From Methylacidiphilales bacterium (lineage in GTDB: Bacteria; Verrucomicrobiota; Verrucomicrobiia; Methylacidiphilales; UBA1321): a stretch of DNA of 64,000 bases. How positions within the stretch are numbered: the first letter of the stretch is position 1; each line of letters opens with the position of its first letter. The translations under genes were made by a program, and so were the position numbers. Positions 6,166-52,224 of this stretch are shown one piece after another. Under the pieces are notes generated by a model that was not told the DNA's origin, made no database searches, and saw only the letters and a program-made list of their open reading frames with translations. Location: NCBI GenBank assembly GCA_021272315.1, contig JAJSLI010000021.1, forward strand, positions 1-64,000. The letters run 5' to 3'.

Positions 6166-6963
6166 CTATTCCTTCTGCGACAGGACCTGTTGATTGCTTG
6201 TTTCCAGCGCCTCGACTTTTTCACGCAACAATTTCATTTCTTCGAGCACCAGCTTGAGTTCAGAATCTTCCTCTTTTTGCATTTTTTGCATGGGTTCAAG
6301 AAAGACGGTGGCGATGTAAGCCGTGATGCAGCCAAAGAGGCAAACGCCGGTGGCCATCAGGAAAAGCGCGACGGCGCGTCCGCCCTCGGTCACGGGATAT
6401 TTTTCGCAGGAGACCGTGGTGATGGTGCTGAAGGACCACCAAAGCGCGTCTTCCGATGTTTTGATGTTTGAATCGGGCGAGAAGGTTTCAAAATTCAGTA
6501 CAGCGATGGCCGAGAAAACCGCGACCAGAAAGGAAACGAGAATGACCGAAATCACTCCGGTCCGGGCCCGGTGCCGAAAGAGAAAGTGCGCGATGATTTT
6601 GGTGGAGCGGAAAGCGCGGAGAATGCGGAACATCCGGATGATTCGAAGCAAGCGTATGTGGTTGGAGGCGGGCAGGAATAGAATTGGAATGCTGGAAATA
6701 AAATCGATCCAGCCCCACTTCATAAATTCGAGCTTGGAGGGCGCTTTCCAGAGCCGAAAAAAGAAATCCCATAAAAAGAAAACGCAGACGACCAAATCCA
6801 TTCCATCGAGAATTTCGTTTGTTTCCGGTGAGAGATCACGGACGAAGGTTTGAATGGCAAAAACGATGAGGACGTAAACGGAAAGAATCAGAATGATGAT
6901 CTGAAGCATGCCGGGTTCATCGGACTCCTTGTTTGCGACCGCTTCGTTTTCTGGTTCGGGCAT
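6166..6963 (-). CDS. Voltage-gated-like ion channel / ion transporter, C-terminal coiled coil
   Basis: S4-like RLLRIIRMFRILRAFRSTK; pore region WWSFSTITTVSCEKYPVTEGGR; further TM helix after the pore. Confidence 0.85.
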   Translation of the reverse strand: MPEPENEAVANKESDEPGMLQIIILILSVYVLIVFAIQTFVRDLSPETNEILDGMDLVVCVFFLWDFFFRLWKAPSKLEFMKWGWIDFISSIPILFLPASNHIRLLRIIRMFRILRAFRSTKIIAHFLFRHRARTGVISVILVSFLVAVFSAIAVLNFETFSPDSNIKTSEDALWWSFSTITTVSCEKYPVTEGGRAVALFLMATGVCLFGCITAYIATVFLEPMQKMQKEEDSELKLVLEEMKLLREKVEALETSNQQVLSQKE

Positions 6964-7167
6964 AATCGGAAGTTTTTAGACAAGAGCCGTTTGAACTGTG
7001 ATGCAAACAGGTGACGTTCTGGTGTCATTTCGACTAAGCGGTCGGATGCAGGGCAATGAACCGGCTTCCGTTTCAACGACGGGGATTGTCACAAAATTGG
7101 CACGGTACAGTCGTTGACGACCGGCTCGGTTTCACGTTGGCTTTATGGAATTATCCAAAGGAGGCCC

Positions 7168-7818
7168 ATGTTATTTTCGGAACAAACTCCAGCCAGTGAT
7201 CGCAACGGAATCAACTCCGGGTTTCCTCAAGGTACAAGCCACACGCTGCGGGAGATTCTCGAGGCTAACCGCGCCTATGCTGAAAATTTTGGCGATAAAG
7301 CCAGGCTGATCGGCGCGCCCCGCCGCCGCATGGCGATTTTAACCTGCATGGATGCGAGGATGGATCCCGCCAAGTTCAGCGGACTAAACGAGGGCGATGC
7401 CCATGTTATTCGCAATGCGGGCGGGCGGGCCAGCGACGATGCCATCCGCTCGCTCGTTGTGTCGTGCAAGTTAATGGGCACAACCGATTGGTTCGTCATA
7501 CACCACAGCGGCTGCGGCATGCAGTCCTACACCGATGACGAAATCAGGCATTTGCTTGGACTGGATACCGATGAGCATCCCGAAGGCAGCAAGTGGCATG
7601 ATGTCAAAAAAAGCGCCCAAACGCCGGCCGATATTCATTGGCTGACCTTCAGTGACCTGGTGCAAAGCATCGTTGATGATGTCAAACGCATCCGCCAACA
7701 TCCGCTCGTGCCACCCTCGGTGGCGATTTGCGGCTACATCTACCACATACATCACGGCATGCTGGAGCCCGTGCCCGAGGCGAATCGGATCGGAGCGCCG
7801 CAGATGGAGCCAGCCTAG
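7168..7818 (+). CDS. Beta-class carbonic anhydrase
   Basis: LTCMDARMD...HVIRNAGGRASDDAIRSLVVS...VIHHSGCGM; SD AAAGGAGG upstream of ATG 7168 (ORF track opens at 7114). Confidence 0.9.
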   Translation: MLFSEQTPASDRNGINSGFPQGTSHTLREILEANRAYAENFGDKARLIGAPRRRMAILTCMDARMDPAKFSGLNEGDAHVIRNAGGRASDDAIRSLVVSCKLMGTTDWFVIHHSGCGMQSYTDDEIRHLLGLDTDEHPEGSKWHDVKKSAQTPADIHWLTFSDLVQSIVDDVKRIRQHPLVPPSVAICGYIYHIHHGMLEPVPEANRIGAPQMEPA

Positions 7819-8183
7819 GTTTGGTGATGGGGTTCGTGGCCGGACTTGGCCCGCTTGCTTGGTGTTCTGTCTTTTGTAAAACCGGTTTGTTGCAAAATGT
7901 GCAAAAAGCTTTCGCGTAGAAGAGCCCGTTTCTTGTTGGAAAAAAGCATCTTCGCCCAGAAGGGCGCGGACCCAAATATGGTGACGCGGTGGGGCGCAAA
8001 CCAGACCTCCCATTTCACCGGATGAGTCGTGACGTGGAGCAGGTGGTCGTTTCCCCTGTCCCACTCATGGGAGGTGGGCCACTTCGACCTCGGCGCATTT
8101 TTCTTCAGGAATTGATCGAGAGCTTTGCGCCTGGGGGCGGTCAGCGGATGCTCAATATTGAATTCGTAAATTTTTTCTTTCAT
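7815..8183 (-). CDS. Conserved-looking hypothetical protein
   Basis: 122-aa ORF with Cys-free, basic/aromatic composition; tail-to-tail with carbonic anhydrase. Confidence 0.55.
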   Translation of the reverse strand: MKEKIYEFNIEHPLTAPRRKALDQFLKKNAPRSKWPTSHEWDRGNDHLLHVTTHPVKWEVWFAPHRVTIFGSAPFWAKMLFSNKKRALLRESFLHILQQTGFTKDRTPSKRAKSGHEPHHQT

Positions 8184-8237: not shown

Positions 8238-8645
8238 CTAACCGCCAAAGGTGCCGGTGGCGAGGGGTGCTTCCGCTTTGGTGACAACAACCGGCTTGCG
8301 GCGTGAAACCTTGCGCTTGGGCGAGGGACGGACCCTTGAAAACCCGGCATGCTGGCCATTGCGACGAGAGATCGGTGGGGCGAACGCTTCGCCGGGTTGC
8401 GTTGCTTTCGCCGTGCTGTGGCGGCGCGCGCGGGTACGCGAGGGCTTTGTTTCCGCATACATCGCTTCGGTGGCGAAATCCTCCACACCGGCAGCGGAAA
8501 GAAAATCACCCAAGTCGGCCATTTGGAGACCAAACTTTTCAAGAAGCGGTCCTATTTTTTTGCGCAGCTTTCCCCAATTCGCGCCAACAGCAACACCCGC
8601 TCCAAAGGCAATTAATCCGGTAAGAACAACGTCACGTCTAGGCAT
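8238..8645 (-). CDS. Small protein with N-terminal GxxxG hydrophobic helix and basic, Ala/Arg/Lys-rich tail (YtxH/DUF-like)
   Basis: MPRRDVVLTGLIAFGAGVAVGANWGKLRKKIGPLLEKFG...RRKPVVVTKAEAPLA. Confidence 0.65.
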   Translation of the reverse strand: MPRRDVVLTGLIAFGAGVAVGANWGKLRKKIGPLLEKFGLQMADLGDFLSAAGVEDFATEAMYAETKPSRTRARRHSTAKATQPGEAFAPPISRRNGQHAGFSRVRPSPKRKVSRRKPVVVTKAEAPLATGTFGG

Positions 8646-8773
8646 GGCGAAAGGATTGTGGGTTCATCCGCTTCATGGCAATCCTAATCGAGGCAAGGTA
8701 GTGTTACATTTCCGTGACAAGATCCGGGATGCACTTGACTTGAATGCCGCTCCACCCAACCTGATCAATAACT

Positions 8774-9499
8774 ATGACTGCCGCAGCTCTTCCCGGTAAT
8801 ATCCTCGTTCTACCCAGGACGGCCACTCGCTCCCGTAAGAAGGCACCTGCTAAAAGCGCGACTGCCGCCCGATCCGGGGCCAGACGCGCGGGGAAAACCG
8901 AGGTCCGTGCGGTGCGCACGTCTAAAATTTTGCGCGATCTCTTGGAAAAAAACCCGGACAAAAGTTTTACCGTGCAAAAGATCGTCGATTCCATCGGGGG
9001 CTCCTCCTCCTTCGGCACCTCCCTGCTGGTTTCTTCCATTCCGGAAGTCCTGCCAATCCCGATACCCGGTATTTTTGCCATAGTCGTCATTCCCACCGGG
9101 ATCATCTCGGCGCAGATGATCGCAGGTAATAAACAGCTCAAGCTGCCCAAGTTTATTTTAAAGCGCACCATTCACCGCAAGGCCTTGGCTACCGCCATCC
9201 ATGCCATTCTCCCTTTTTTGGAAAAGACCGAGAAATACGTCAAACCGCGCTGGCAATGGGCGGTGCATCCGGCGTCCCGGCGATTTATCGGTGCGTTCAT
9301 CCTCCTGCTGGCGGCGGCCATGGCCCTGCCGGTCCCTTGGACCAACATGCCGCTGGCCATTTCCATCTTTATCATCGCGCTTGGTCTCATCGAGAAGGAT
9401 GGCATGATGATCACTCTGGGCATTTTGATAGGATTAGCATCATTGGCTTTTCTTGGGGGAATCATTTGGGGAGCGTTATCGCTATTTAGCATGCTTTAA
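8774..9499 (+). CDS. ExoD-like exopolysaccharide synthesis family membrane protein with a basic N-terminal extension
   Basis: VQKIVDSIGGSSSFGTSLLVSSIPEVLPIPIPGIFAIVVIPTGIISAQMIAG and C-terminal TM helices. Confidence 0.8.
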   Translation: MTAAALPGNILVLPRTATRSRKKAPAKSATAARSGARRAGKTEVRAVRTSKILRDLLEKNPDKSFTVQKIVDSIGGSSSFGTSLLVSSIPEVLPIPIPGIFAIVVIPTGIISAQMIAGNKQLKLPKFILKRTIHRKALATAIHAILPFLEKTEKYVKPRWQWAVHPASRRFIGAFILLLAAAMALPVPWTNMPLAISIFIIALGLIEKDGMMITLGILIGLASLAFLGGIIWGALSLFSML

Positions 9500-9589
9500 G
9501 TTTGGGGCAGGTTTGAGCAGGCGGGAATGTCATCTCTTTGTTACACTACATTCCTTGTTAGTTTTGCCGTGTTCGCCTAGGTAATCTGC

Positions 9590-10021
9590 ATGGCCACCAA
9601 AACCCGAAAACTTGAAACCAATGCATTTTCCGTTCTGGGCGATGCGCTTGAATCCGCAGCCGAGAGCTTTGAAGAGGTCACTGTAAATGCCCGGGATTCC
9701 GCGAAGAAGGCCGCGGCGACCACCCGCCGGGCTTTAAGCAAAGGCGTCCACAGGACCGGGTATGGAATTTCTTACGGCGTGATTTACGCCGCAGTTTTTT
9801 TGACTGAATTGTTTCCCGAGGAAAATCCCTGGCGCCGAGGCCTGGAGGAAGGCGCGCATGATGCCTTGGAGGAACGGAGCAGGATTCGCGAACAAAAGAC
9901 CAAGAAAAGCAAGACTTCCGCCAAATCCAAAACGGCCGCCAGGACCAAAAAACCCAAAGCGAGCAAAGCCGTGAAAGCGCGCGCCGATCAGTTTGACGCT
10001 GCGGTTGAAGCGACCGCTTGA
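9590..10021 (+). CDS. Small protein with one hydrophobic segment and a Lys/Ala-rich (histone-H1-like) C-terminal tail
   Basis: GYGISYGVIYAAVFLTELFPEENPWRRGLEEGAHDA followed by KTKKSKTSAKSKTAARTKKPKASKAVKARA. Confidence 0.65.
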   Translation: MATKTRKLETNAFSVLGDALESAAESFEEVTVNARDSAKKAAATTRRALSKGVHRTGYGISYGVIYAAVFLTELFPEENPWRRGLEEGAHDALEERSRIREQKTKKSKTSAKSKTAARTKKPKASKAVKARADQFDAAVEATA

Positions 10022-10076
10022 TGGTATACGGGCAGGATTTCGGTCATGACTGTCTGATCCTCTGTTTTGGGCCACC

Positions 10077-12680
10077 TTGAAAGAGAGGGTACGTTTTATG
10101 TCTTCACCCGAAACGGCCCTGGCCACCCTTGAGCCACCGCGTCAAAATGGGAGTTACAATGGCTCGTCTAAAGCGCGTCTGAAAGTTTTACGTCCCGTTG
10201 CCAAACGCAAGCGGCCTCGCCTGCGGGATGATCTGCAGGTGCTTTTCCCCGGGCCGGGCCGTCTTGAATTTCGAAGCGAGAGCAGATTTTCCACCTGGAA
10301 CAACAACCGTTGCCGCCAGTTTATCGAGTTAAGTCTTGGGATTCACGAAGTCCGCGAAGTTGAAATCGATTCGTTCAACCGGACAGCTGCGGTCGTTTAT
10401 CGTCATGGTGGAAATTCCTCACAAGTCGTCCGCAAGATCGCCCGAATATATCGAGGCGACCTTGCGCCCGATTCCCGCCCCACCCTTTCACCCGAACTGC
10501 TTCGCGCGCTGCCGAAGAGTCAGCCGACCTTGCGCGCCTTCCGCTACGGCGAGGTTATCAGCACCTGGGAGTTACGCATGCAGCTACCCGGCTGGATCCG
10601 GCTGCGCAACGCGCTGGTTCTGAACAAGCCCCACCTTGCCCGGTATCTTGAAAAGGAACTGGTCAGCCTGATGGGTATCAAGCACCACGAAATCCATGTG
10701 CGTGGCGGCAGTATTACGATCGAGTTTAATCCGCAGATCATCCACAAGCAGCAAATCGTCAGTCATCTTGACGCTGCCCTCTGTCGTGCTCCCAAGCGTC
10801 CGCTCAAGCAGGTGGGCGATCACCACTTCAAAATCGCCTCCGCATCACTGGCCCTCTCCGCCACGGCGACTTTTTTCAATCCCGCTCTGCTGCCCATCGG
10901 CGCGGTGCTGATGCTTTACACGGCCATTCCCAGTTTTCGCCGGGCCTATCATTCGATGCGTCACGAGCGCCGGCTGGGAATCGATTCACTCGACACGATC
11001 ATCTTCACCGCGTGCCTGTTTACCGGAGAAATTTTTGCCGGTGCCATGACGGCATGGTTCCTCAGTCTTGGCCGCAAACTGCTTAAGCAGACACGGGCGG
11101 AATCCGCCAAGGTCCTGCTGCAAATGTTCGGCAAACAACCCACCCTGGCCCGCGTGTTGAAGGATGGAAGGGAAATCGAAACGGACCTGGAAAAAATCAA
11201 GCGCGATAATCGCATCGTGATATACACCGGAGAAGTGGTGCCGGTCGACGGCGTCATTGTCGAGGGTGATGCGATTTTGGACCAACACGCGCTCACCGGG
11301 GAATCGGCCCCGGCGGAAAAGAGTGTGGGCGGCAAAGTCTTCGCCTCGACGGTGATGCTGGCTGGAAAAATCGTGGTGCGCGTCGAACGTGCGGGCAAGG
11401 ACACCGCTTCAAGCAAGATTAGCCGGATTTTGAACAAAACCGTCGCCCACAAACTGCGCGCGCAATCGCGGGGCGAAGAACTGGCCGACAAGGCGGTGCT
11501 GCCCGCCTTGGGATTATCCGCCTTGGCGGGAGGAACCGTTGGCGCCAGCGGAGCCTTGGCCGTCATCAATTCCGATTTGGGCACCGGCATCCGTATGGCG
11601 GCGCCGCTGGGCATGCTCACTTCGATCACGCTTTGCGCCCAGCAGGGCATTCTCGTGAAGGATGGCCGGGCATTGGAGTTGATGCGGAATGTAGACACCG
11701 TTCTTTTCGACAAGACGGGGACCCTGACCCGGGAAAAACCGGAGGTCGGGAAAATCCTTTGCTGCGGAGACTATCCGGAAGAGCAAATTTTGACTTTTGC
11801 CGCCGGAGCTGAACAAAAATTTACCCATCCCATCGCCCGCGCCATTCTCGATAAATTTGCCGCGTTGAAAAGACCCATGCCGCGCTTGGATGCCTCCAAA
11901 TACCATGTCGGTTACGGAATTACGGTGGAGATAGAGGGCTATACGGTGCGCGTGGGCAGCCGCCGCTTTATCGAAATGGAAAACCTCGCCATCCCGGACA
12001 GAGTCGAGTTGGAGATGAAGGAATTACACGCGACGGGACATTCCTTTGTTTGCGTGGCCATCGGGAATCAACTGGCCGGTGTCATCGAATTACAATCCTC
12101 GCACCGGCCCGAGGTGGAGGAAATCATCTCGGGTTTGCGCACCCGCGGCGTGAATCACATGGCCATTATTTCCGGCGATCATGAGAAACCGACGCGCCGT
12201 CTGGCGGAACACCTCAAGATGGATCGCTATTTCGCCGAAGTCCTGCCGCAGGACAAGGCGCGCTACGTGGAGCTTTTGCAGAAGGAAGGCCGCACCGTCT
12301 GCTTTGTCGGCGACGGGATCAACGATTCCATCGCGTTGAAAAAAGCGAACGTTTCCATCTCGCTCCGGGGCGCGTCCTCCATTGCCACCGATACCGCGCA
12401 AATCGTTTTCATGGAAGAAAGTCTGGCCAGGATTTGCGACTTGAAGGATTTCTCCCTGGCTCTTGAACATAACGTGCAGAGGAGTTGGAACCTCATTCTG
12501 ATGCCGAACGGTTTTTGCATCGCCGGCGTATTCCTTTTCGGTTTCAACATCTGGCATTCGGTTTTTTTCAACAACGCCTCCGCCATACTGGCATTGTTGA
12601 ACGGTTTGCTGCCTTTGCGCAAGGCGGCGAGACTGCACGAGGAACGACAAAAGAGCCGTCAGTTGTTGGTGGAAATTTAA
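10077..12680 (+). CDS. P1B-type (heavy-metal-like) P-type ATPase lacking the canonical CPx motif
   Basis: LTGES, LFDKTGTLT, VGDGINDS present; TM motif before the P-domain reads GIRMAAPLGMLTS in place of CPC/SPC; basic N-terminus. Start may be the ATG at 10098 (MSSPETALATLEPP). Confidence 0.9.
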   Translation: MKERVRFMSSPETALATLEPPRQNGSYNGSSKARLKVLRPVAKRKRPRLRDDLQVLFPGPGRLEFRSESRFSTWNNNRCRQFIELSLGIHEVREVEIDSFNRTAAVVYRHGGNSSQVVRKIARIYRGDLAPDSRPTLSPELLRALPKSQPTLRAFRYGEVISTWELRMQLPGWIRLRNALVLNKPHLARYLEKELVSLMGIKHHEIHVRGGSITIEFNPQIIHKQQIVSHLDAALCRAPKRPLKQVGDHHFKIASASLALSATATFFNPALLPIGAVLMLYTAIPSFRRAYHSMRHERRLGIDSLDTIIFTACLFTGEIFAGAMTAWFLSLGRKLLKQTRAESAKVLLQMFGKQPTLARVLKDGREIETDLEKIKRDNRIVIYTGEVVPVDGVIVEGDAILDQHALTGESAPAEKSVGGKVFASTVMLAGKIVVRVERAGKDTASSKISRILNKTVAHKLRAQSRGEELADKAVLPALGLSALAGGTVGASGALAVINSDLGTGIRMAAPLGMLTSITLCAQQGILVKDGRALELMRNVDTVLFDKTGTLTREKPEVGKILCCGDYPEEQILTFAAGAEQKFTHPIARAILDKFAALKRPMPRLDASKYHVGYGITVEIEGYTVRVGSRRFIEMENLAIPDRVELEMKELHATGHSFVCVAIGNQLAGVIELQSSHRPEVEEIISGLRTRGVNHMAIISGDHEKPTRRLAEHLKMDRYFAEVLPQDKARYVELLQKEGRTVCFVGDGINDSIALKKANVSISLRGASSIATDTAQIVFMEESLARICDLKDFSLALEHNVQRSWNLILMPNGFCIAGVFLFGFNIWHSVFFNNASAILALLNGLLPLRKAARLHEERQKSRQLLVEI

Positions 12681-12694
12681 CCGCGAAAAATACG

Positions 12695-13543
12695 ATGATC
12701 CAGATACTGTTGCCGGGAGAAAGTTCGCTGAGCAAGGTTGAACTTCAGGATACCAAGAATTTTCGCGACCAGTTGGGCAGGGCGCGCTGGGTCGATTTAT
12801 TCGACCCCGAACCACACGAGGAAAAATTCCTGGAAGAGGTGTTGAAGCTCGACATTCCCAGTCATGAGGAAATGACGGAAATTTCCGAATCGAGCCGCCT
12901 GTTCGTCGAGGGGGATGCTCTCTACTTGTCGTGCTGGTTGCTCTGCTATGAGACGGCCATTCCGCAAAACGCCTCGATCTCCTTTATCATCACGCCAAAG
13001 CACTTCATCAGCATCCGCTACTCGGACCACCACGCCTTCCGCATTTTTCGCAGCGCGCAGAAAGGCATCCAGCACCACCGCTTCCGCAGTTCGGATGGGG
13101 CGTTGTTGGAGGTGCTGGAGGCGGCGGTGGGGCACATCGCCAGCACCCTGCGCTTGATCGAACAGGACCTGAATAGTCTCTCGCTGGTCATCTTCGGGGA
13201 ACAAAAAAAGCAAAAAACCGGGGCTCCCAATATGGGGCTGAAACGCATCGTTCAGCGTCTCGGCAAACGTAACTCTCTTGTGGCCAATTTGAGGGAAAGT
13301 GCTGTCAGCCTATCCGCGTTGACGCCATTTTTGATCGAAAATGTCCGCGACTGGATGAACCCCGATCTCAAGCTTCGGTTTGAGATTTTGGTGAAAGACA
13401 TCGAGTCGTTGCGCGAGTACGATGGCCAATTGACGTCGGAGATCGGTTTTCTGCTCGACTCCACAGTTGGTCTCATCGGCTACGAGCAAAATCAGACCAT
13501 GAAGTTCCTAAGCGTGGCTGCCCTGCTGGTCGTTTTTGTCTAA
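12695..13543 (+). CDS. CorA-like transporter soluble domain, truncated before GMN motif
   Basis: CorA-family features (SFIITPKHFISIRYSDH, NLRESAVSLSALTPFLIENVRDWM..., IGYEQNQTMKFLSVAALLVVFV then TAA). ORF track opens at 12485, overlapping the ATPase; ATG 12695 preferred. Confidence 0.75.
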   Translation: MIQILLPGESSLSKVELQDTKNFRDQLGRARWVDLFDPEPHEEKFLEEVLKLDIPSHEEMTEISESSRLFVEGDALYLSCWLLCYETAIPQNASISFIITPKHFISIRYSDHHAFRIFRSAQKGIQHHRFRSSDGALLEVLEAAVGHIASTLRLIEQDLNSLSLVIFGEQKKQKTGAPNMGLKRIVQRLGKRNSLVANLRESAVSLSALTPFLIENVRDWMNPDLKLRFEILVKDIESLREYDGQLTSEIGFLLDSTVGLIGYEQNQTMKFLSVAALLVVFV

Positions 13544-13561
13544 ATTTAATCAAAAACACCG

Positions 13562-15679
13562 ATGGCCAAGCATACGACCCATCTGGCAATCATTCCAGCT
13601 CGTCACAACGGCGCCACTCGCCGCCCAACGCGCTCAACGACCCCCAATGGTGGTCTCCGGGACATTCATGCCAGAATGACCGGCGGCAACAGGACCCTTC
13701 ACTTGCAAGGCGATCTCCTGGTCGAAGCTTTGTCCCACACCACGCGGCGAGACTTGATCGACCGCTTTTTTGCGCTTCCCAGGTTGAGCTTCTTGCACCT
13801 GAATACCCGCAAGGGCAAGGCGCGCCTTCACTTCGAAGAAAAAACGACCAAGTCGGAAGTTCTCACTGCCCTGGCCGTTATCATGCGCAGCCGGGTCATT
13901 GAGCGTCTTCCTCTGGCCAATGATCACTTGCTTCTTGATGAAGAGCATCCTGACGCGATTGAAATCAGCCGTGTGGGCCGTGAATTGACGTTCTGGCGGA
14001 TTGAGATGCGCAACCCGGGACATTATCGATTGTGGCATCCGCTGCTTCACTCGGACATCGCCCGGCAGCAGGTTTTGCAAGAGTTTGCCACCCTGCCCGA
14101 TGTCGTCAGGAAAGCGCCCTCCTTCCTTCATCGGGCCGCCATCCATATCTGGGTCCGCCCGCACCGGATCGATCCCGCGCATTTGATCGACATACTCGAT
14201 CCCGTGTTGGCCGACTACATGGTGGGACCAACGGAGATCGCGCGCCAGCCCTTCAAGGAAGCCGTGATCAACGCCAATCTTGCGCTGTCACCCATCTCCG
14301 ATTTCCTCTTTCCACCGGTCGGGCTGGCCAATGCGGTCCTGGTCGGCGCCATCAATCGCAGCCACATCATGCCGGCTTTTCGCGACCTGCGCCACGGCCG
14401 CACCAACCTGCATCTGCTCTATCTCTCCATCGGTGGGCTGACCCTTCTCACTTTCAATTTCTTCGCGGCGGCGGTCATGTATTGGCTCCTCCTATTTTGG
14501 CCGCGCGAGGCCAAACGCCTGCGGCAGCAATACGAAACGGACTTTCTTTCCTCTTACCGCCGCCGACCCCTGCGTGTCTGGGTGGAACGCAAGGGATCGG
14601 TCATTGAAACCCGTGTGCGGGAACTCACGCCCGAAAGCGTTGTTGTGCTCAATCCCGGTGATCTGGTTCCGGGTGATGGCGTCGTATTGAGCGGCAGCGC
14701 CAAAATCGACGATCGCCGGATCACCGGTGCGATGGAATCCCAAACCAAGACGCAGGGAGAACCGGTTTACGCTTCAAGCCAGGTGCTGGAAGGAGAACTG
14801 CGCATTCAGGTCCGCTCGACGAACGAGGACTCGGCCGCGGCCCGCATTGCGGCCTGGTATGTCGAGAATCTGAAAATCAACCCCGAACACCAAAGCCTGC
14901 GGGCCAATGAGTATGCCGAGTCCGCGGTGCTCCCGGTTTTGCTGATCGGCCTGCTGGGTCTTTACCGTGGAGGTCTCTCCATGGCCAAGGCCGCAATTCG
15001 CCCGGACTATCTGACCGGACCGATGATCGCTGAGGACTTTGTCGACCTCGCGATGACGATTCGCGCCGCACGGGAAGGCATCCTGCTCGCCAACGCCTCG
15101 TCCCTCGCCGCGCTCGCCACCTGTGACTGCCTTATCCTTGACGACACCGTCCCTTGGAACACCCGCGGGCTGGAAAGCGGCGACTTCGCGGACCGCGTTC
15201 ATGACCACGGCGTTTCGGAAATAGCGTTTCTATCGGGAGAAAAGTCCAGCGCCGTTTCCAAATCGAATTTCGATGCCATCCGTCACGAGTTCACCACGGA
15301 GGCGAAACGGGCCTACATCGCCCAGCGGCAACATTTCGATCACATTGTGGCGTATGTGGGCGATTGCCAGGCGGAAGCGCCGGTGGCTGCCCAGGCTGAT
15401 CTTGCCATCTCCGTGCTGACGCCTCCCCATGTCACGCCGCACGGCACGCAAGCCGCGCTTTTGGGCGCCGATTTAATCAAGATTTTAGGCCTGTTGAATC
15501 TCGTCAAGGAATCTCGCGCCGAGTTTAAGACCGCTTTCGGCGTCAGCCTCGTGCCCAATGCCGCCTCGGTCATCGGCGCGCTCTATTTCCACACGCATGT
15601 GGAAACCTCGGTGATTCTCAGCAACCTCGGTACTCTGGCGAATTACCTGCGTTACCGTTCCATGATGCGTTTGGAATGA
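13562..15679 (+). CDS. Degenerate P-type ATPase-like protein (predicted pseudoenzyme)
   Basis: Collinear with the ATPase at 10077-12680, but TGES->ITGAMES, DKTGTLT->LDDTVPWNT, GDGIND->GDCQAEA; intact 705-aa frame. Confidence 0.82.
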   Translation: MAKHTTHLAIIPARHNGATRRPTRSTTPNGGLRDIHARMTGGNRTLHLQGDLLVEALSHTTRRDLIDRFFALPRLSFLHLNTRKGKARLHFEEKTTKSEVLTALAVIMRSRVIERLPLANDHLLLDEEHPDAIEISRVGRELTFWRIEMRNPGHYRLWHPLLHSDIARQQVLQEFATLPDVVRKAPSFLHRAAIHIWVRPHRIDPAHLIDILDPVLADYMVGPTEIARQPFKEAVINANLALSPISDFLFPPVGLANAVLVGAINRSHIMPAFRDLRHGRTNLHLLYLSIGGLTLLTFNFFAAAVMYWLLLFWPREAKRLRQQYETDFLSSYRRRPLRVWVERKGSVIETRVRELTPESVVVLNPGDLVPGDGVVLSGSAKIDDRRITGAMESQTKTQGEPVYASSQVLEGELRIQVRSTNEDSAAARIAAWYVENLKINPEHQSLRANEYAESAVLPVLLIGLLGLYRGGLSMAKAAIRPDYLTGPMIAEDFVDLAMTIRAAREGILLANASSLAALATCDCLILDDTVPWNTRGLESGDFADRVHDHGVSEIAFLSGEKSSAVSKSNFDAIRHEFTTEAKRAYIAQRQHFDHIVAYVGDCQAEAPVAAQADLAISVLTPPHVTPHGTQAALLGADLIKILGLLNLVKESRAEFKTAFGVSLVPNAASVIGALYFHTHVETSVILSNLGTLANYLRYRSMMRLE

Positions 15680-15726: not shown

Positions 15727-16590
15727 CTAGAACCCAGCCCAGGCGAAGGCAACGACGACAGCCGCAAACGCTAGGCAGTAAAAACCGAAGTAATGCCATC
15801 TTCCCGTTTCCAGCCATCTGGAAAGAAGACGGAGCGCCAGAAGACCGGCAACAAAGCTGCAACCCATTCCGACCATTCCGGGAAAGAGGAGGGATGTCAG
15901 GTGAACGGGCTGGGCGGCGGTCGAGTTGGCTTTAAGCAACCGCTTAAGTTCAAGGATGATCACCGGGGGGGTGAGGATAACCGCCAGGGCAAAACTAAAT
16001 TCCTCGGCCCGGCGCTTATTGATCCCAAGCAACAGGGCGGTTGAAATCGTCGCGCCCGAACGGGAAAATCCCCGGAAGGGAAGACAGAGCGCTTGGACAA
16101 TTCCGATCCAGCCTGAAGCGGGCAAGGTTATCTCCTGATCGTCTCCCCCGTTTTTGGCGAACAGACCGGAAACAATAATCAAGAGACCCGCCGCAGCCAG
16201 CGCCCCGCCGACGAGCGGGAGATTGGAAAAAAGTTCTTCCACTTCAGCCTTCGCGCCTCCTCCCAGGATGACTTTCTCAATCACTACTTTTAGAACGAAC
16301 CCCAGAATGAACGTGATCACGGTTGCAACTGCCAGACTGGGCAGAATGGAAAGGAAACGGTTGAAGCTTGAAAAATAGCTCTCTTTCCATGCGCTCCAGA
16401 AATAAGCGATTACGGCAAACATGGTCCCGGTATGGAGCATCACGAGCAGGAAGGTCAGCTCGGGCCTCGAAGGGTCCAGCCCCATTAATTTTTCAGCCAA
16501 AATGACGTGGGCGGAACTGGAAACCGGCAGTAATTCCGCAGCGCCCTGTAAGAACGCAAGAATGATGATTTGAAACCAAGTAGGTGACAT
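15727..16590 (-). CDS. uppP: Undecaprenyl-diphosphatase
   Basis: QGAAELLPVSSSAHVILAEKLMG and LPFRGFSRSGATISTALLLG, BacA/UppP signatures. Confidence 0.92.
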   Translation of the reverse strand: MSPTWFQIIILAFLQGAAELLPVSSSAHVILAEKLMGLDPSRPELTFLLVMLHTGTMFAVIAYFWSAWKESYFSSFNRFLSILPSLAVATVITFILGFVLKVVIEKVILGGGAKAEVEELFSNLPLVGGALAAAGLLIIVSGLFAKNGGDDQEITLPASGWIGIVQALCLPFRGFSRSGATISTALLLGINKRRAEEFSFALAVILTPPVIILELKRLLKANSTAAQPVHLTSLLFPGMVGMGCSFVAGLLALRLLSRWLETGRWHYFGFYCLAFAAVVVAFAWAGF

Positions 16591-39673: not shown

Positions 39674-40582
39674 CTACCGCGCCGCCACCTTATGCCGGAA
39701 GGCCAGGTAACCGCTGAGCATTTCTCCCAGGGAAAGACCGGTGTTGGCGAGGATGTAATGGCAGCCGCTGCGGTCGCAGATTTCATGCACCCGCCGGCGA
39801 AAGTCATTCATGGATTTCAGGTAACTTTTTCGGATGGCGGCGGGAGTGGTTTTCATCCGGAGCGTGCCCTCGAGGCCGATGAATTCGACCGTCCCGTGGA
39901 ACGGAAACTCCAGTTCGTAGGGATCCATCACGTGGAAGACGACGACTTCGCTGCCGCCAAAACGAATCTGCCGGATTCCCTTCTCCAGCGCCTCTTCGTC
40001 GTCGAAGAGATCGCTGATGACCATGACAATCCCGCGAGCCTTGGTCATCCGGGCGATGTCATTGAGGGCCGCGCCGATGCGGGTTTGTTCGGTGGCTTTG
40101 AAAGCGGCGAGCCGATCCATGATCGAATGGATTTTTTCCAAGTTGTCGGTGCGCGTCATCGTTTCCCGCAACTCCGTGTCAAAGACGTGCAGCGCGACCG
40201 CATCCCGCTGCAACAGGATCAGGTAGGCCAGACAGGCACCAAGCGCCTTGGCATAGTGGAGCTTGGTGATTTTCCCCGAGCCGTAGTTCATCGACGAACT
40301 GCCGTCAATCAGGAGATGCGCCACGAAATTCGTGTCCTGCTCGTACTGCTTGATGTAATAGCGGTCGGTGCGGCCCAACACCTTCCAGTCAAGGTGACGA
40401 ATATCGTCGCCGGGGGTGTATTCCCGGTGCTGGGAGAATTCGATGGCGAAGCCGCGGAAAGGAGATCGGTGCTCGCCGACGCGATAGCCTTCCACGACTG
40501 TCCGCGCCAGAATACCCAGGGTTTCGCCCCGGGCGATGGCATCGGCGTCGAGCAAGTCGCGATGTGAAGAAGTCTGCTCCAT
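39674..40582 (-). CDS. DUF58-domain protein
   Basis: GYRVGEHRSPFRGFAIEFSQHREYTPGDDIRHLDWKVLGRTDRYYIKQYEQDTNFVAHLLIDGSSSM. Confidence 0.93.
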   Translation of the reverse strand: MEQTSSHRDLLDADAIARGETLGILARTVVEGYRVGEHRSPFRGFAIEFSQHREYTPGDDIRHLDWKVLGRTDRYYIKQYEQDTNFVAHLLIDGSSSMNYGSGKITKLHYAKALGACLAYLILLQRDAVALHVFDTELRETMTRTDNLEKIHSIMDRLAAFKATEQTRIGAALNDIARMTKARGIVMVISDLFDDEEALEKGIRQIRFGGSEVVVFHVMDPYELEFPFHGTVEFIGLEGTLRMKTTPAAIRKSYLKSMNDFRRRVHEICDRSGCHYILANTGLSLGEMLSGYLAFRHKVAAR

Positions 40583-40648
40583 GAAGGATAAAAGCGAAAA
40601 GATCGTTCCTGCTGTCGCAAGGGCTCATGACCGCCATCGAACCGCGGC

Positions 40649-41731
40649 TTAGGCCAGTGGTTCGTTTTGCGGGACTTCCTCCAGAATTTTACGGACCACG
40701 TCATCTGGAGTAATCCCCTCGCTCTGGGCGGCAAAATTGATGGCGATGCGATGTCTTAAAATGGAGAACGCCACGGCCGCCACGTTTTCGCAACTCACAT
40801 AAACCTGCCCCTGGATCAACGCGTGCGCCTTGGCTGCCATGATCAACCCCAGGCTGGCGCGTGGACCGGCGCCGAAGCTGAGCCATTTTTTACAAAAATC
40901 AAAAGCTTCGGAAGTCTTGGGCCGGGAGGAACGGACGATCCGCTCCGCATAACGATAAACATGGTCGGGTACCGGGACGGTTTTGACCGTTTCCTGAATA
41001 AACAGAACATGTTCCGCAGTGAGGACCGGCTGGGGGGCTTCGCCCTTCATGCCCGTCCCCATCTTCATGATCAACAGTTCCTCCTCCTCGGAAGGATAAT
41101 CGACATTGATAAAGAACATGAAGCGATCGAGCTGCGCTTCGGGCAGCGGATAGGTTCCCTCCTGTTCCAGGGGATTCTGTGTGGCAAGCACGAAGAACGG
41201 CGCCGGCAGATCACGCGTGTTGCCGCCCACCGTTACCCGCCGCTCCTGCATCGCTTCGAGCATGGCGGCCTGGGTCTTGGGCGGCGTTCGGTTGATTTCG
41301 TCCGCCAGCACGACATTGGCAAAAAGCGGCCCCGGAAGAAACTTAAACTGCTTTTCGCCCGAGACGGGGTCTTGGTAAATAACCTCAGTGCCTGTGATAT
41401 CGCTGGGCATCAAGTCAGGAGTGAACTGGATGCGGCGAAAAGACATCTGCAGAGTCTGTGCCAGCGTCGAAATGAGGAGGGTTTTCGCAAGACCGGGCAC
41501 CCCGACGAGCAGAGCGTGGTTCCGGGTGAAGATGGCAATCAGGATTTCCTGCACAACCTGATTCTGGCCGACAATAACCTTGGAAAGTTCATATTGAATG
41601 CGGGCATGTGAGGCCTTGCAAAACTCAACGGCCTCGGTGTCGGTCGGCGCATTTGCCTTCATCACCGCGGCGGAATTTTCCTGGGTCGTTGCCTGCGCCT
41701 CCGGAACCTGTTCGAGTGTGTCTGCTTCCAT
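40649..41731 (-). CDS. MoxR-family AAA+ ATPase
   Basis: LLVGVPGLAKTLLISTLAQTL...VVLADEINRTPPKTQAAMLEAMQERRVTVGG. Confidence 0.94.
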   Translation of the reverse strand: MEADTLEQVPEAQATTQENSAAVMKANAPTDTEAVEFCKASHARIQYELSKVIVGQNQVVQEILIAIFTRNHALLVGVPGLAKTLLISTLAQTLQMSFRRIQFTPDLMPSDITGTEVIYQDPVSGEKQFKFLPGPLFANVVLADEINRTPPKTQAAMLEAMQERRVTVGGNTRDLPAPFFVLATQNPLEQEGTYPLPEAQLDRFMFFINVDYPSEEEELLIMKMGTGMKGEAPQPVLTAEHVLFIQETVKTVPVPDHVYRYAERIVRSSRPKTSEAFDFCKKWLSFGAGPRASLGLIMAAKAHALIQGQVYVSCENVAAVAFSILRHRIAINFAAQSEGITPDDVVRKILEEVPQNEPLA

Positions 41732-45188: not shown

Positions 45189-46013
45189 CTAGCGGTCCGC
45201 TCTGGTGAAGAAGCGGACGTAACCTTCAACGGCTAGATAAAGGACAAAAAAGAGGGCGGTAATCCAAAAAGTCGGCGGTCGGTCGGTCAGGCAGGCCAGG
45301 AGAATTCCCGCCCAGACAACGACAAGGCCCAAAAGAATCGAGACGATCATGCCGGACCAAAAAGTGCGGCAGAGCCGCAGGGCAATCCCCGCCGGGGCAA
45401 TGACGAGGGCGAAGGTAAGAAGGACGCCGACAACCTGGCTGGCGAGGGAGACAGCGATGGCGAGAATGACCATGAAGGCGACGGCGAGACCGGCGAGGGA
45501 GAGACCACGCGCTTCGGCGAGGTCGGGCTGGACGCTGGCGAAGAGGAGGCGGCGCGCGAAGAAGGCTAGGCCGGCGAAGCAGAGGACGGAGAGGACGGCC
45601 ATTTCGACGACCTGGCCGAAGGAGACGCCGAGGATATCGCCGAAGAGAATGGCTTGGGCTTCGCCGGCGTAGCCGCGGTAGAAACTCAGGAAGAGTGCGC
45701 CGAGGCCGAGGGAGAGGGAGAGAACCATGCCGATGGCCATGTCGCTGCGATTGAGCTTGTCCCCGGAGATGCCCATGAAGGCGCCTGCGCCGATGGTGAA
45801 GAGGAGCATGCCCTGGAGCGGGTAGAGGCCGAGGAGGGCGGCGGCGGCGGCGCCGGCAAAGCCGATGTGGGAGAGGGCGTGGGCGGCGAAGGCGACATTG
45901 CGAATGATGACGAAGTAACCGACGACGGCACCGAGGAGGGCGGCGAGCGACCCGGCCATGAGGGCGTTGCGAACGAAGTCATAGCCGAGATAGGTGGAAA
46001 GAGTGTCAATCAT
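45189..46013 (-). CDS. znuB: Zinc/manganese ABC transporter permease
   Basis: ABC-3 family multi-TM, FALVIAPAGIALRLCRTF; operonic with ZnuC/ZnuA-like genes. Confidence 0.9.
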   Translation of the reverse strand: MIDTLSTYLGYDFVRNALMAGSLAALLGAVVGYFVIIRNVAFAAHALSHIGFAGAAAAALLGLYPLQGMLLFTIGAGAFMGISGDKLNRSDMAIGMVLSLSLGLGALFLSFYRGYAGEAQAILFGDILGVSFGQVVEMAVLSVLCFAGLAFFARRLLFASVQPDLAEARGLSLAGLAVAFMVILAIAVSLASQVVGVLLTFALVIAPAGIALRLCRTFWSGMIVSILLGLVVVWAGILLACLTDRPPTFWITALFFVLYLAVEGYVRFFTRADR

Positions 46014-46809
46014 GGTCGTGGTGGAAGCATTCTGATTCGGTCACGTTACCCTCCGCCGAGACGACGAAAACGCGGTTCTCCAGCCGCACGACTTCAATCT
46101 CAAATCCATATAGCTTGGAAAGGGAGGCCGATGTGACCACGTCATCGACCTTGCCCAGCGCGCCATGACCTCCCGCCAGATAGAGGACGCGATCCATGAC
46201 GTGCATCAGCGGATTCATATCGTGGGCCACAAAGAGGACGGTCGTCTGGGTAAGGCGCTTGACCCTCGCCACGCATTCAATCAACAACGCCTGATTTTTG
46301 GGATCAAGGCTGGCCAGCGGTTCATCCAGTACGAGAATCCGGGGATCGCCCAGAAGAGCCTGGGCCAATATCACGCGCTGGCGTTCTCCGCCTGAGAGCA
46401 CGGAAAACGGGCGCTCGGCGTAGTGACTGGCATCCGTTACCTCCAAAACGCGGTCAACTTCCTGCTTCGATTTTTTGGAAGTCCACGGGATCCCCCACTG
46501 ATCTCCGTAACACGCCGCTTCCACCAAAGCCCGCGCGCTCAGGGCCGTGGAGTCAAACCCGGCATGTCCCTGGGGCATATAACCGATTTGCCGGGCCGAC
46601 TTGCCGGGCGGCAAGCCGAGGACTTCTATAGACCCCCGGGTGGGCGGCAAAGTACCGATGATGCAGCGCACGAGCGTCGTCTTGCCGGCTCCGTTGGGCC
46701 CAAAAACCCCGATAAACTCGCCCTCGTCAATTGTCGCATTGACCCCGGACAAAATCGCGTTCCCCCCAAGAGAAATAGTGAGATCGGATATTTGCAGGGC
46801 GGCGGTCAT
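46006..46809 (-). CDS. znuC: Zinc/manganese ABC transporter ATP-binding protein
   Basis: Walker A GPNGAGKTTL, signature LSGGERQRVILAQAL, Walker B ILVLDEP. Confidence 0.92.
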   Translation of the reverse strand: MTAALQISDLTISLGGNAILSGVNATIDEGEFIGVFGPNGAGKTTLVRCIIGTLPPTRGSIEVLGLPPGKSARQIGYMPQGHAGFDSTALSARALVEAACYGDQWGIPWTSKKSKQEVDRVLEVTDASHYAERPFSVLSGGERQRVILAQALLGDPRILVLDEPLASLDPKNQALLIECVARVKRLTQTTVLFVAHDMNPLMHVMDRVLYLAGGHGALGKVDDVVTSASLSKLYGFEIEVVRLENRVFVVSAEGNVTESECFHHDHD

Positions 46810-46830
46810 CGTGGGCGGAGCGGGTGATAT

Positions 46831-47703
46831 TTAGTTTTTAGCACCAAGAGCCGCCTGAACGCCAACCAACTCGTGCATCATCCAGTCGACATAGCTCTTC
46901 TCATCGGGAGGCTGGGTTTCCGTCACTCCTACAATCGGAACCCTCGACTGTTGGGCGATTTTCTTAATACGGTCCGTCGTCGGGTCGGTCACCTGGCTGT
47001 TGTAAAAGAGAATTTTTGCCGTCTTGGACGTAAGACTTTTTTCAAAGGCAACCGTCTGGTCCGCGCTCGGCTCGGTGTCGTTCATGATGTTCACCTGAAA
47101 ATCGTAGTTGAGCATCTTGAACCCGAGAGCCTTGGCCATGTAACCAAACACCGGTTCCGTCGCCGTTACTTCAAGTCCCGCCGAGGACGCCTTGATTTGC
47201 GTGATCTTGTCGAGTTCGGGTTGCATGGAGGTGTTAAAGTCATCCAGCCTTTTTTGATAGGCGCCGGCCTGGGCCGGATCGATCTTGGAGAGCACTTCCA
47301 CCAGCTTGGCTCCCAAAGCCGGCATCGTCCGGGGGTCATACCAGATATGGGGATTGTCCCCGTCTTTGCCTCCAATCAAATCGGCGACGTTGATGACCAC
47401 CCGATTTGGTTTTCCGTTCGTCCCGAGAAGTTTCTCGATCCACGGATCGTAGCTGATTCCGCTGTAGATCACGATGTCGGCATCGGCAACTGATTTTGCC
47501 GTGCTGGCGTTGGTCGTAAACTCATGGGGATCTTGGTTCGGATTGGTGAGGATGCTCGTGACGGTCGCGCTGTCTCCGGCGATTTGCTTGGCCACGCCGC
47601 CGTAGAAATTTTCGGCGGCCACAATTTTGAGGCCGTCCGCATGCGCGGAAACAGCGGTCAGCCAGAGACTGGCGATACAGGTGAATTGGAGGAGTGTTTT
47701 CAT
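46831..47703 (-). CDS. znuA: Zinc/manganese ABC transporter substrate-binding protein
   Basis: Signal peptide; IVAAENFYGGVAKQIAGDSATVTSILTNPNQDPHEFTTNAST...DNPHIWYDPRTMPALG. Confidence 0.92.
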   Translation of the reverse strand: MKTLLQFTCIASLWLTAVSAHADGLKIVAAENFYGGVAKQIAGDSATVTSILTNPNQDPHEFTTNASTAKSVADADIVIYSGISYDPWIEKLLGTNGKPNRVVINVADLIGGKDGDNPHIWYDPRTMPALGAKLVEVLSKIDPAQAGAYQKRLDDFNTSMQPELDKITQIKASSAGLEVTATEPVFGYMAKALGFKMLNYDFQVNIMNDTEPSADQTVAFEKSLTSKTAKILFYNSQVTDPTTDRIKKIAQQSRVPIVGVTETQPPDEKSYVDWMMHELVGVQAALGAKN

Positions 47704-47731
47704 AAGAGCAGACTCCAAGCCTAAACAAGGC

Positions 47732-47760
47732 GCAAGCAACTTGCAAATAGTTCTTGCAAG
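47732..47760. promoter_or_regulatory. Overlapping inverted repeats in znuA / TonB-receptor divergent promoter
   Basis: GCAAG-CAA-CTTGC (47732-47744) and CTTGCAA-ATAGTTC-TTGCAAG (47740-47760). Confidence 0.6.
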
Positions 47761-47789
47761 AATTTTGCATCGTGCTAGCCCGGATTCAT

Positions 47790-50108
47790 ATGCAAACAGC
47801 TTGCGTTTATTCTTCTGCGTTTTTTAAACGGGTTGGTCTGGCTTTTCTTCTGGGAGCGGTCATTAGCCTCACGTGTTTCCGGGCCGACGCCCAGACCGCA
47901 ACGGACACAGCCGCCACCGCTTCGACCGCCGGCAGCCAGACAACAACCACCAACCCAACGACGCTCAACGCAACCAAGGCCGGTTCCCCCGTTACTGCCC
48001 AAGCGGCGGCGCCGACAGGCACGAATCAAGCCGTGCAGATGCCGGAAGTTACGGTCATCGGTCAATTGGATCAGGCGCGTCAGGCCATTGTGCCAAGTCT
48101 CGGGGCCACGGTTTACACCGTCGACCAGCAGGACATAAAGGATTTGAGCCAAGGCGAGAACGTTCCCTTCAGCAAGTTGCTGCTCCGATTTCCCGGAGTA
48201 AGCCAGGATTCAGCCGCGTCGGGAAGTTTGCACATCCGCGATGACCACGCCAATGTGCAATACCGGATTGATGATGTGCTCATCCCGGAAAGCATCACCA
48301 GCTTCGGGACCCAGTTCGACACGCGGTTCGCTGAAAGCGTCGATCTTATCACCGGCGCGCTGCCGGCGGAATACGGCTTTCGCCAGTCGGGAATTATCGA
48401 TATCCACACCAAGAACGGGGTGGTCAACCCTGGCGGCGACGTCGATTTTTACGGCGGGAGCTACGGAACCATTCATCCGAGCTTCGAGTACGGCGGTTCC
48501 CAAGGGAAGTGGAACTACTATTTCTCGGGCGGCTACCTCCAGAACACCCAAGGCATCGAAAACTCGACCTCGAGTTACAATCCCATCCACGACAACTCCG
48601 ATCAGTATCGTGGGTTTGCCTATCTCTCCTACATCATTGATGACACGAGTCGCATCAGCCTGATCGCCGGGGAAGCCTACAACCAATACCAGATTCCGAA
48701 TAACCCCAGCCAGACCCCCGCATTGCAGGCCAATGGCACGCCCTATGTGCTTCCAGGCATAACGACCACCAACTCGGTCAATCTTAATGAAAATCAGCGC
48801 GAGCAGAATAATTTTGAAGTTTTGGCCTATCAAAAAGCCATCGACGATTTCAGCTTCCAGCTTTCGCTCTTCAACAGTTACAGCGCGGTCAATTACGATC
48901 CCGATCCAAACGGGGGCGATCTCTACTTTAATGGAGAATCGGGCAGCCTGAACCGCAGCGTCATGTCCAACGGGACCCAATTCGATGCGAGTTACGACCT
49001 CAATGATGCCCACACTATTCGAGGAGGATGGCAGCTCAACGCCCAAGGCGGGGCCCAAACCGCCGTCACCACGGTGATTCCGCTTGATGGCGCCGGAAAC
49101 CAGTCCGGTCCTCCCGAGACCTTCAACGACAGCGATTACATGACGGCTTACAGCTACGGCTTCTATCTCCAGGATGAGTGGAAAATCACCAAAGCGCTGA
49201 CGCTGAATTACGGCGGCCGGATGGATTTTTATCAAAGCAGTTTCATCCGGCAGAACCAACTGAGCCCACGCATCAATGCAACCTACGTAATTGATCCGGC
49301 GACAACGATCCATGGCGGCTACGCGAGCTACTTCACGCCTCCGCCGGTGGAAAATATTCCGCAGGGCACGACGACCCAATTCGCCGGAACGACGGGCGCG
49401 GCCACGCCGGGATTGCCGAACGGTCCGGTGCAATCGGAACGGGCCCAATATATTGACGCGGGCATCGTGCACAAATTCACCCCTGAATATCAGGTGGGCT
49501 TGGACGGCTATTATAAACAGGCGATCAATCTGATTGACGACGGCCAGTTTGGTACCGCTCCCATACTAAGCGCGTTCAACTACGCGCACGGTCAAATCTG
49601 CGGCATCGAACTGAGCCAGAGCTACACCCGGGGCGGCTTCTCCGCCTACGCCAACCTTGCGGTCGAAGAAGGGCTCGGAGAGCAGGTCAATTCTGCCCAA
49701 GGCGTCCTTTTCAATGCCTACGATTACAACTACATCCAGAACCACTATATTTATCTCGACCACAGCCAGAGTTTCACCGGATCAGCGGGACTCATCTATA
49801 ACATCACCCAGACCGAAACAACCCCCTACCTTGAGATGATCTGCGGCAGCGGCCTGCGCTCCGATACCGACCCCGGCATGCCGGACAACATCCCCAACGG
49901 CGCATCCGTACCCGCCTATGACTCGATCAATATCGGGTTCAGCCAGGGATTCAAGTGGGCCGGGATGCCCAACTTGAAGGTCCGGCTCGATGTGATCAAT
50001 GTCGGTGACCAAATCTACCAAATCCGCAGCGGATCAGGTGTGGGCGTTTTTGCCCCCCAATACGGCCAGCGCCGGAGTGTCTTTGCTGGAGTGACCTACT
50101 CTTTCTGA
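47790..50108 (+). CDS. TonB-dependent outer-membrane receptor
   Basis: Signal peptide; plug domain LDQARQAIVPSLGATVYTVDQQDI...LLRFPGVSQDSAASGSLHIRDDHANVQYRIDDVLIP; beta-barrel; C-terminal aromatic FAGVTYSF. Confidence 0.9.
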   Translation: MQTACVYSSAFFKRVGLAFLLGAVISLTCFRADAQTATDTAATASTAGSQTTTTNPTTLNATKAGSPVTAQAAAPTGTNQAVQMPEVTVIGQLDQARQAIVPSLGATVYTVDQQDIKDLSQGENVPFSKLLLRFPGVSQDSAASGSLHIRDDHANVQYRIDDVLIPESITSFGTQFDTRFAESVDLITGALPAEYGFRQSGIIDIHTKNGVVNPGGDVDFYGGSYGTIHPSFEYGGSQGKWNYYFSGGYLQNTQGIENSTSSYNPIHDNSDQYRGFAYLSYIIDDTSRISLIAGEAYNQYQIPNNPSQTPALQANGTPYVLPGITTTNSVNLNENQREQNNFEVLAYQKAIDDFSFQLSLFNSYSAVNYDPDPNGGDLYFNGESGSLNRSVMSNGTQFDASYDLNDAHTIRGGWQLNAQGGAQTAVTTVIPLDGAGNQSGPPETFNDSDYMTAYSYGFYLQDEWKITKALTLNYGGRMDFYQSSFIRQNQLSPRINATYVIDPATTIHGGYASYFTPPPVENIPQGTTTQFAGTTGAATPGLPNGPVQSERAQYIDAGIVHKFTPEYQVGLDGYYKQAINLIDDGQFGTAPILSAFNYAHGQICGIELSQSYTRGGFSAYANLAVEEGLGEQVNSAQGVLFNAYDYNYIQNHYIYLDHSQSFTGSAGLIYNITQTETTPYLEMICGSGLRSDTDPGMPDNIPNGASVPAYDSINIGFSQGFKWAGMPNLKVRLDVINVGDQIYQIRSGSGVGVFAPQYGQRRSVFAGVTYSF

Positions 50109-50134
50109 TAGCAGCAAAATCAATCGTAAAATTC

Positions 50135-50764: not shown

Positions 50765-50880
50765 ATCGAAGTCACTTTTCCCAACACAAAAATTTTGGGT
50801 TACAACAGGACTATGACCGGTCAAACGAGCCGTCTCACAAGTCGATGTCCGCGCAGAGTTGATGAACGCGACAACCGTCG

Positions 50881-51429: not shown

Positions 51430-51432
51430 GCC

Positions 51433-51969: not shown

Positions 51970-52224
51970 TGAGACAATATAAGCTCGAAAGTCGATCCTT
52001 GTAAACCGGCAGCAGCAGAAAAGCCACGCGGGTCCTTAATCTCTGCACGGTGGCGTTATTTGAACCCTGCACGTGCTGGAGTTTTCGATCAATTGGGCGA
52101 GTCGTCCAAGAATGCCTTCACTCAGTGCAAGCTGTCGTTAATAAATAGCAACCAACCGTCAGCACGATTTTGAAGCAACGGGCATACTACCCGGGCGGGA
52201 AACAGCCGAAAACAGCATCTTGGA

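Follow-up and report, generated by a model that had tools for sequence, protein, structure and literature searches.

The first 64,000 nucleotides of contig JAJSLI010000021.1 (the window), taken from the 3.8-Mb draft genome (G000) of a Methylacidiphilales bacterium, carry a compact group of genes, here called the module, that appears to encode a membrane transport assembly not described before. Gene families were assigned by Pfam and NCBIfam profile searches, which confirmed the ExoD-like membrane protein, the P1B-type ATPase (A), and the CorA-like domain (CorA-t) named in the original prediction. These lie together with a P-type pseudo-ATPase (B) and two small proteins with one transmembrane (TM) segment each (small1 and small2) (Table 1). 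The predicted limits, positions 8238 to 15679, enclose all the genes that had been named, but the conserved set reaches further, to the gene of a small soluble protein, h7815. Consecutive plus-strand genes are separated by 90, 55, 14, and 18 bp, and a promoter and terminator scan of the locus was uninformative. The start of CorA-t was corrected to ATG 12695, which matches the start in relatives, and a longer CorA open reading frame (ORF) from TTG 12485, which overlaps the ATPase A gene, was discarded as spurious. For A, ATG 10098, preceded by a GAGAGGG motif, is the more likely start.

ATPase A keeps every catalytic motif (DKTGT, TGES, HP, and GDGxND), which, together with a TIGR01525 score above the cut-off, identifies it as a P1B-type enzyme. 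Its two N-terminal HMA-like domains are devoid of CxxC. In TM4, the sequence N[SCA][DE]xGTGIRMAAP stands in place of the CPx motif, as expected for the CPx-less ATPase that had been predicted, and neither CPC nor the SCA of P1B-6 pumps (DYSCA...) is present. TM6 carries NN or NQ, compared to HN in P1B-6 and CtpC-type pumps, so that the A proteins of the module have neither the TM4 Cys nor the TM6 HN of P1B-6. In the phylogenetic tree, A, B, and a second type of pseudo-ATPase (D) formed one clade (support, 100), with Cys-less ATPases of Gloeothece and Deinococcus as its sister (100) and, further out, Azospirillum P1B-6 (99), Fusobacterium (95), and a Rhodococcus DUF1490-linked ATPase (100). A is thus a member of the P1B-6/PacL (DUF1490)-associated superclade (support, 95 to 100). 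This superclade excludes the ZntA and CopA groups, keeping A apart from the known Cu and Zn exporter clades, in agreement with the original prediction.

The P-type pseudoenzyme that had been noticed corresponds to B. Compared to A, B has retained the HMA-like N-terminal domains and the TM segments, while the entire N-domain, with the HP motif, is deleted. In the window copy, DKTGT is changed to DDTVPW, TGES to TGAME, and GDGxND to GDCQAE, where the last Asp is gone; B thus lacks the phosphorylation, dephosphorylation, and ATP-binding motifs of a P-type enzyme. Other B copies display a DD[TSG]xxW-like sequence at the phosphorylation loop, with D527, D528, and W532 invariant in six out of six aligned proteins, and the copy on plasmid pMRAD05 has lost the A-domain motif as well. 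B contains no stop codons and is under purifying selection, not decaying: between two same-genus copies, B had a ratio of nonsynonymous to synonymous substitution rates (dN/dS) of 0.12, an approximate value given a dS of 1.27. The corresponding ratio was 0.03 in A, with CorA-t at 0.08. B and D pseudo-ATPases formed one clade (100), sister to A, and the pMRAD05 B branched inside B (98), indicating that the A/B duplication is older than the split between the copies of the two phyla. The D proteins (about 900 residues) have disabled catalytic motifs and keep an insert of N-domain length without the HP motif. A comparable protein occurs in Gloeothece verrucosa PCC 7822 (NC_014533, L065 9819-11387), where a degenerate P-type ATPase, with VFAAKSF at the DKTGT site and no A-domain, is annotated as "HMA2 domain-containing protein" and encoded beside an active one. 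Its placement suggests that it likely arose by an independent duplication (support, 100).

CorA-t, predicted as a CorA-like soluble domain, matches PF01544 over the funnel and stalk. The protein ends within TM1 (...NQTMKFLSVAALLVVFV*), before the GMN motif and TM2, and therefore cannot form the TM1-GMN-TM2 pore of CorA channels. Five copies from two phyla, 46 to 85% identical to the window copy, share the end "...MKxLxVAALLVxF[VI]*", and every copy found in the module stops at the same point. The nearest full-length CorA proteins sampled in the class run on through PPTLIASIYGMN, where the sequence "...ASVLFMPPTLIASIYGMN..." is followed by TM2. Downstream of the CorA-t stop, no remnant of GMN or TM2 was found in any frame, and only 18 bp remain before the next gene, which led us to reject a frameshift or read-through restoring TM2. 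The host genome encodes a separate full-length CorA-family protein (L124, G000:C48), which has GTWYEQ, not GMN, at the loop after TM1.

The single TM segment of small1, which is encoded divergently, harbors an invariant AGxxxG motif (GAGVAVG in the window), in line with the predicted GxxxG small protein, and its basic tail has a net charge of +10. Small2 is the predicted protein with one hydrophobic segment (SYGVIYAAVFLTELFPEENPWRRGLEEGA) and a basic tail, here Lys/Ala-rich with a net charge of +12, and it also contains a conserved SYG...LTELxPEENPxRRGLEEGA segment. Both tails are Cys-free and have no His-rich metal motif. Small2 accompanies nearly all copies of A, whereas the gene surroundings of its distant homologs in another family are unrelated. 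We rejected small2 as a Mic10-like membrane bender (PF04418), matched by only one of eight members (E = 0.008), and as CbtA, for which weak matches in four of eight members (best E value, 0.011) were judged to be chance hits on the TM helix. A search for DUF6110 in 20 relatives, run without a positive control, returned no match. The alpha/beta protein h7815 had no Pfam match and an empty PDB profile search, its best Foldseek match being 2jpi/PA4090, a weak one (E = 2e-3).

Conserved synteny in relatives, on which the original prediction depended, was found in several Verrucomicrobiota families, where ExoD, the one-TM small proteins, A, CorA-t, B, and the small soluble protein recur in reshuffled order; the set is common to at least five loci in two phyla. 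The nearest module-bearing records are environmental genomes. G028, from another family of the same order, carries the complete set on a single 14-kb contig (h7815, small1, small2, A, CorA-t, B, ExoD, ion channel, and carbonic anhydrase) in a different gene order, with 73, 61, and 47% identity to the window for A, CorA-t, and B, respectively. In a genome of the same genus (G004), the module is spread over three contigs. Another family of the class provided G381 (carbonic anhydrase, B, CorA-t, A, small2, and ExoD) and G204 (A, ExoD, small2, B, D, small1, and h7815), while G008 encodes two copies of A, small1, small2, ExoD, and D-type pseudo-ATPases. Proteins resembling SRPBCC/START, recognized by eye without a family search, adjoin the ATPase genes at L043 6279-6761 and L055 8081-8584. 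Outside the phylum, a near-complete copy was found in Methylobacterium radiotolerans JCM 2831, a culturable alphaproteobacterium, whose plasmid pMRAD05 has the genes in the order ExoD, small2, A (49% identity), CorA-t (45%), B (24%), and h7815. The small2 gene of this plasmid (L064 14482-14943) is unannotated and is not listed in the PLSDB gene table.

A is patchily distributed: at E <= 1e-90, it was detected in 6 of the 384 genomes sampled for the class and in 3 of the 388 sampled for the phylum. The A clade (branch support, 99) is represented in seven genomes or plasmids, each of which also encodes a pseudo-ATPase partner, and B without A was encountered in none of 295 sampled genomes of the class. 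The 47 to 73% identity in another family, the purifying selection, and the recurrence in another phylum together place the gene set beyond chance. The module is rarely found yet clearly conserved, and it is horizontally mobile. The carbonic anhydrase and the ion channel were not retained as core parts, since the former occurs in many relatives without the module and is missing beside it in G204 and pMRAD05. UppP/BacA (15727-16590) was left out as well because it is not kept beside the module in relatives.

Table 1. Genes of the module, its neighbors, and related features (window positions unless a locus is named)
Feature	Position	Strand	Evidence or remark
VIC-type ion channel (Ion_trans)	6166-6963	-	Beside module in window, G028, and G004 (as pieces); not core
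Beta-carbonic-anhydrase-like protein	7114-7818	+	Frequent neighbor, not core
h7815, 122-aa soluble protein of unknown family	7815-8183	-	Conserved in module, including pMRAD05
small1, 135 aa, one TM, divergent	8238-8645	-	No family match
ExoD-family membrane protein	8774-9499	+	PF06055, 3e-49; present in most module loci
small2, 143 aa, one TM	9590-10021	+	No family match
ATPase A, P1B-type	10077-12680 (ORF from TTG 10077)	+	TIGR01525, 397 bits vs cut-off 346
CorA-t, 282 aa, cytosolic funnel and stalk of CorA type	12695-13543	+	PF01544, 5e-22, profile 5-243 of 292
Pseudo-ATPase B	13562-15679	+	P-type A-domain PF00122, 3e-19
ZnuA-like binding protein, ABC ATPase, ABC-3 permease	45189-47739		Pfam
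TonB-dependent receptor	47754-50108		Pfam
TonB	50135-50764		Pfam
Ferritin	51433-51969		Pfam
Nramp	52225-53514		Pfam
D pseudo-ATPases	L055 15052-17787; L043 7462-10188; L042 7218-9866		

The observed gene set, catalytic losses, truncation, selection, and phylogeny suggest a heteromeric inner-membrane transport platform in which A would be the sole motor and the other parts non-catalytic partners, a reading to which we give an even chance. A would be the only component driven by ATP and would probably move not Cu or Zn but a hard, oxygen-liganded cation (e.g., Mg2+, Mn2+, or Fe2+), since the P1B-6 Cys and His are absent from its transmembrane site. B, an old duplicate of A predicted to be unable to bind ATP in the usual way, would most likely join A, either as a structural subunit or as a regulatory one. 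CorA-t, the leftover funnel and stalk, may sense cytosolic divalent cations while anchored on the A/B assembly, and the one-TM small proteins could be GxxxG-type scaffolds, as PacL proteins are in CtpC/CtpG effluxosomes. The physical complex, its regulation by B and CorA-t, the type of cation, and the direction of transport are what we infer here. Genes of P1B6-like ATPases usually occur together with those of PacL-like DUF6110/DUF1490 proteins (PMC9374683), and such ATPases, like other P1B pumps, are brought together in membrane platforms by single-TM PacL proteins with conserved TM glycines (PMC9374683, PMC13043812); in Mycobacterium tuberculosis, platform assembly needs conserved PacL TM residues, including two glycines (PMC13043812). 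This work on single-TM, glycine-bearing platform proteins makes the PacL analogy a reasonable one.

Several points weigh against such a platform. The probable cation type is deduced solely from absent side chains. Profile comparison revealed no detectable homology of small1 and small2 to DUF1490 (PacL), DUF5132, or the Azospirillum P1B-6-linked small proteins, so that their scaffold role is proposed by analogy only. CorA-t is absent from the G008 and G204 modules and hence not obligatory. The AlphaFold model of B, built from three sequences, is of low confidence (predicted local distance difference test score, 50); two N-terminal ferredoxin-like domains are visible, and we dropped all fold claims beyond them as the model is too poor. 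Finally, we know of no established biochemical role for ExoD, and its presence leaves room for an envelope or polysaccharide function. More tentatively, the module may represent a P-type transporter of a new kind, in which a catalytic and an ATP-dead P1B subunit form an obligate heteromer under the control of a poreless CorA sensor. By analogy, this would be the P-type counterpart of the heterodimeric ABC exporters with a degenerate site, and the architecture would have arisen at least twice, in the module and with the cyanobacterial HMA2 protein.

The missing catalytic residues and domains could also mean that B and CorA-t are decaying, functionless genes, an idea that is contradicted by the selection data (dN/dS values of 0.12 and 0.08, respectively, and no stops) as well as by the identical CorA-t end and the invariant B-specific motifs across two phyla, and that we practically dismiss. 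It is improbable, too, that CorA-t forms mixed pentamers with a full-length CorA-family protein of the host, which would make the module mainly a regulator of Mg2+ influx: CorA-t does retain the funnel and stalk that pentamerize in CorA, and the host does encode such a protein, but the latter has GTWYEQ in place of GMN and is not close to CorA-t, which co-occurs with A and B and not with a host CorA partner gene. An envelope function, with A and B working alongside ExoD in polysaccharide or envelope assembly by moving a lipid or another substrate that is not a metal, appears quite unlikely. ExoD is present in most loci, including pMRAD05, genes judged by eye alone to resemble SRPBCC/START adjoin A in G204 and G008, and A has no metal ligands; however, TM4 of A retains the ion-site architecture of its P1B-6 relatives, the CorA and HMA-like domains indicate cations, and relatives do not keep the undecaprenyl pyrophosphate phosphatase of the window next to the module.

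We regard as unlikely, though less so, that A exports a toxic divalent metal in an effluxosome-type system stabilized by B and the small proteins. By clade and gene context, DUF1490/CtpC systems are the closest characterized relatives, and the plasmid location and patchy spread fit a resistance trait. Against this stand the absence of soft or borderline metal ligands from TM4 and TM6 of A and of CxxC from its HMA-like domains, the basic, Cys-free tails of small1 and small2 with no His-rich metal motif, and the fact that no ArsR-, CsoR-, or MerR-type metal regulator was recognized adjacent to the module in the clusters. The original prediction raised an iron- or metal-storing compartment of the ferrosome type as a plausible hypothesis. 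In this view, A would load ferrous iron into a store that is enclosed by a membrane and owes its shape to the small hydrophobic proteins. A does belong to the P1B-6-like superclade, FezB being a P1B-6 ATPase by that account, and single-TM small proteins are present. The proposal is nevertheless weakly supported, shared P1B-6 ancestry being its sole basis, with the likeness of A to FezB assessed through the P1B-6 class. The fez cluster of D. magneticus includes FezC, a DUF4405-type cytochrome (PMC10979944). No FezC/DUF4405 gene was found among the conserved neighbors, the genome yielding one sub-cut-off match only; a scan of the window for E. coli-type Fur boxes, allowing three mismatches, gave no match, a test limited by the fact that the host consensus may differ; the P1B-6 Cys and His ligands are lost in A; homology to PacL is not detectable; and the host has an ordinary ferritin. 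Moreover, the fez literature searched does not mention a pseudo-ATPase, ExoD, or CorA-t among the components of fez clusters. The storage compartment thus gained no support and we hold it to be improbable.

Elsewhere in the window, Pfam matches delineate a metal uptake and storage neighborhood at 45189-53514 (Table 1). MoxR AAA ATPase and DUF58 genes (39674-41731) head an apparent BatA-type operon, and the window closes (61887-64000) with the first part of a protein that is 704 or more residues long and has no Pfam match at E <= 0.001, in a region of strongly negative GC skew (-0.315 at 62 to 64 kb).

P-type ATPases are usually viewed as self-contained pumps. If the proposed transport platform is correct, the conservation of a pump with an N-domain-less sister and a poreless CorA would mean that a P-type pump can take the form of an asymmetric assembly, and it would broaden the group of P1B-6-like membrane platforms to which PacL systems and ferrosomes belong. 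The likely second, cyanobacterial origin suggests that more pseudo-ATPases may be hidden among "HMA2 domain-containing protein" annotations. In the open-access literature, searches on P-type pseudoenzymes, inactive P1B paralogs, DUF5132/HMA2 proteins, ExoD with P-type ATPases, and pMRAD05 turned up no description of the active/pseudo pair or the module, and the original view of an undescribed system holds up within this scope. The near-complete copy on pMRAD05 of the culturable strain JCM 2831 makes function, partners, and substrate directly testable.

Among known systems, fez clusters (FezA/FezB/FezC) resemble the module in combining a P1B-6-type ATPase with small membrane proteins, but the module has no nearby FezC-type DUF4405 cytochrome and no E. 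coli-type Fur box, and it includes a pseudo-ATPase, CorA-t, and ExoD. The cytosolic funnel and stalk of CorA-t are homologous to those of CorA Mg2+/Co2+ channels (PF01544; solved CorA cytosolic domain 5n77), whereas the lack of GMN, of TM2, and of half of TM1 leaves no pore. The Gloeothece locus, which consists of a P1B-6-like ATPase, DUF5132, and the HMA2 protein, also joins an active Cys-less ATPase (DFGTGIR) to a degenerate one without DKTGT and A-domain, but its pseudo-ATPase is of independent origin and neither ExoD nor CorA-t is present. With respect to P1B-6/DUF6110/DUF1490 loci and CtpC-PacL1 effluxosomes (PMC9374683, PMC13043812), the module differs in that A has no Cys/His ligands, in that its small proteins are not detectably homologous, and in the addition of a pseudo-ATPase, a poreless CorA, and ExoD. 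It shares with them an ATPase of the same superclade and, beside this P1B6-like enzyme, single-TM small proteins with a Gly motif.

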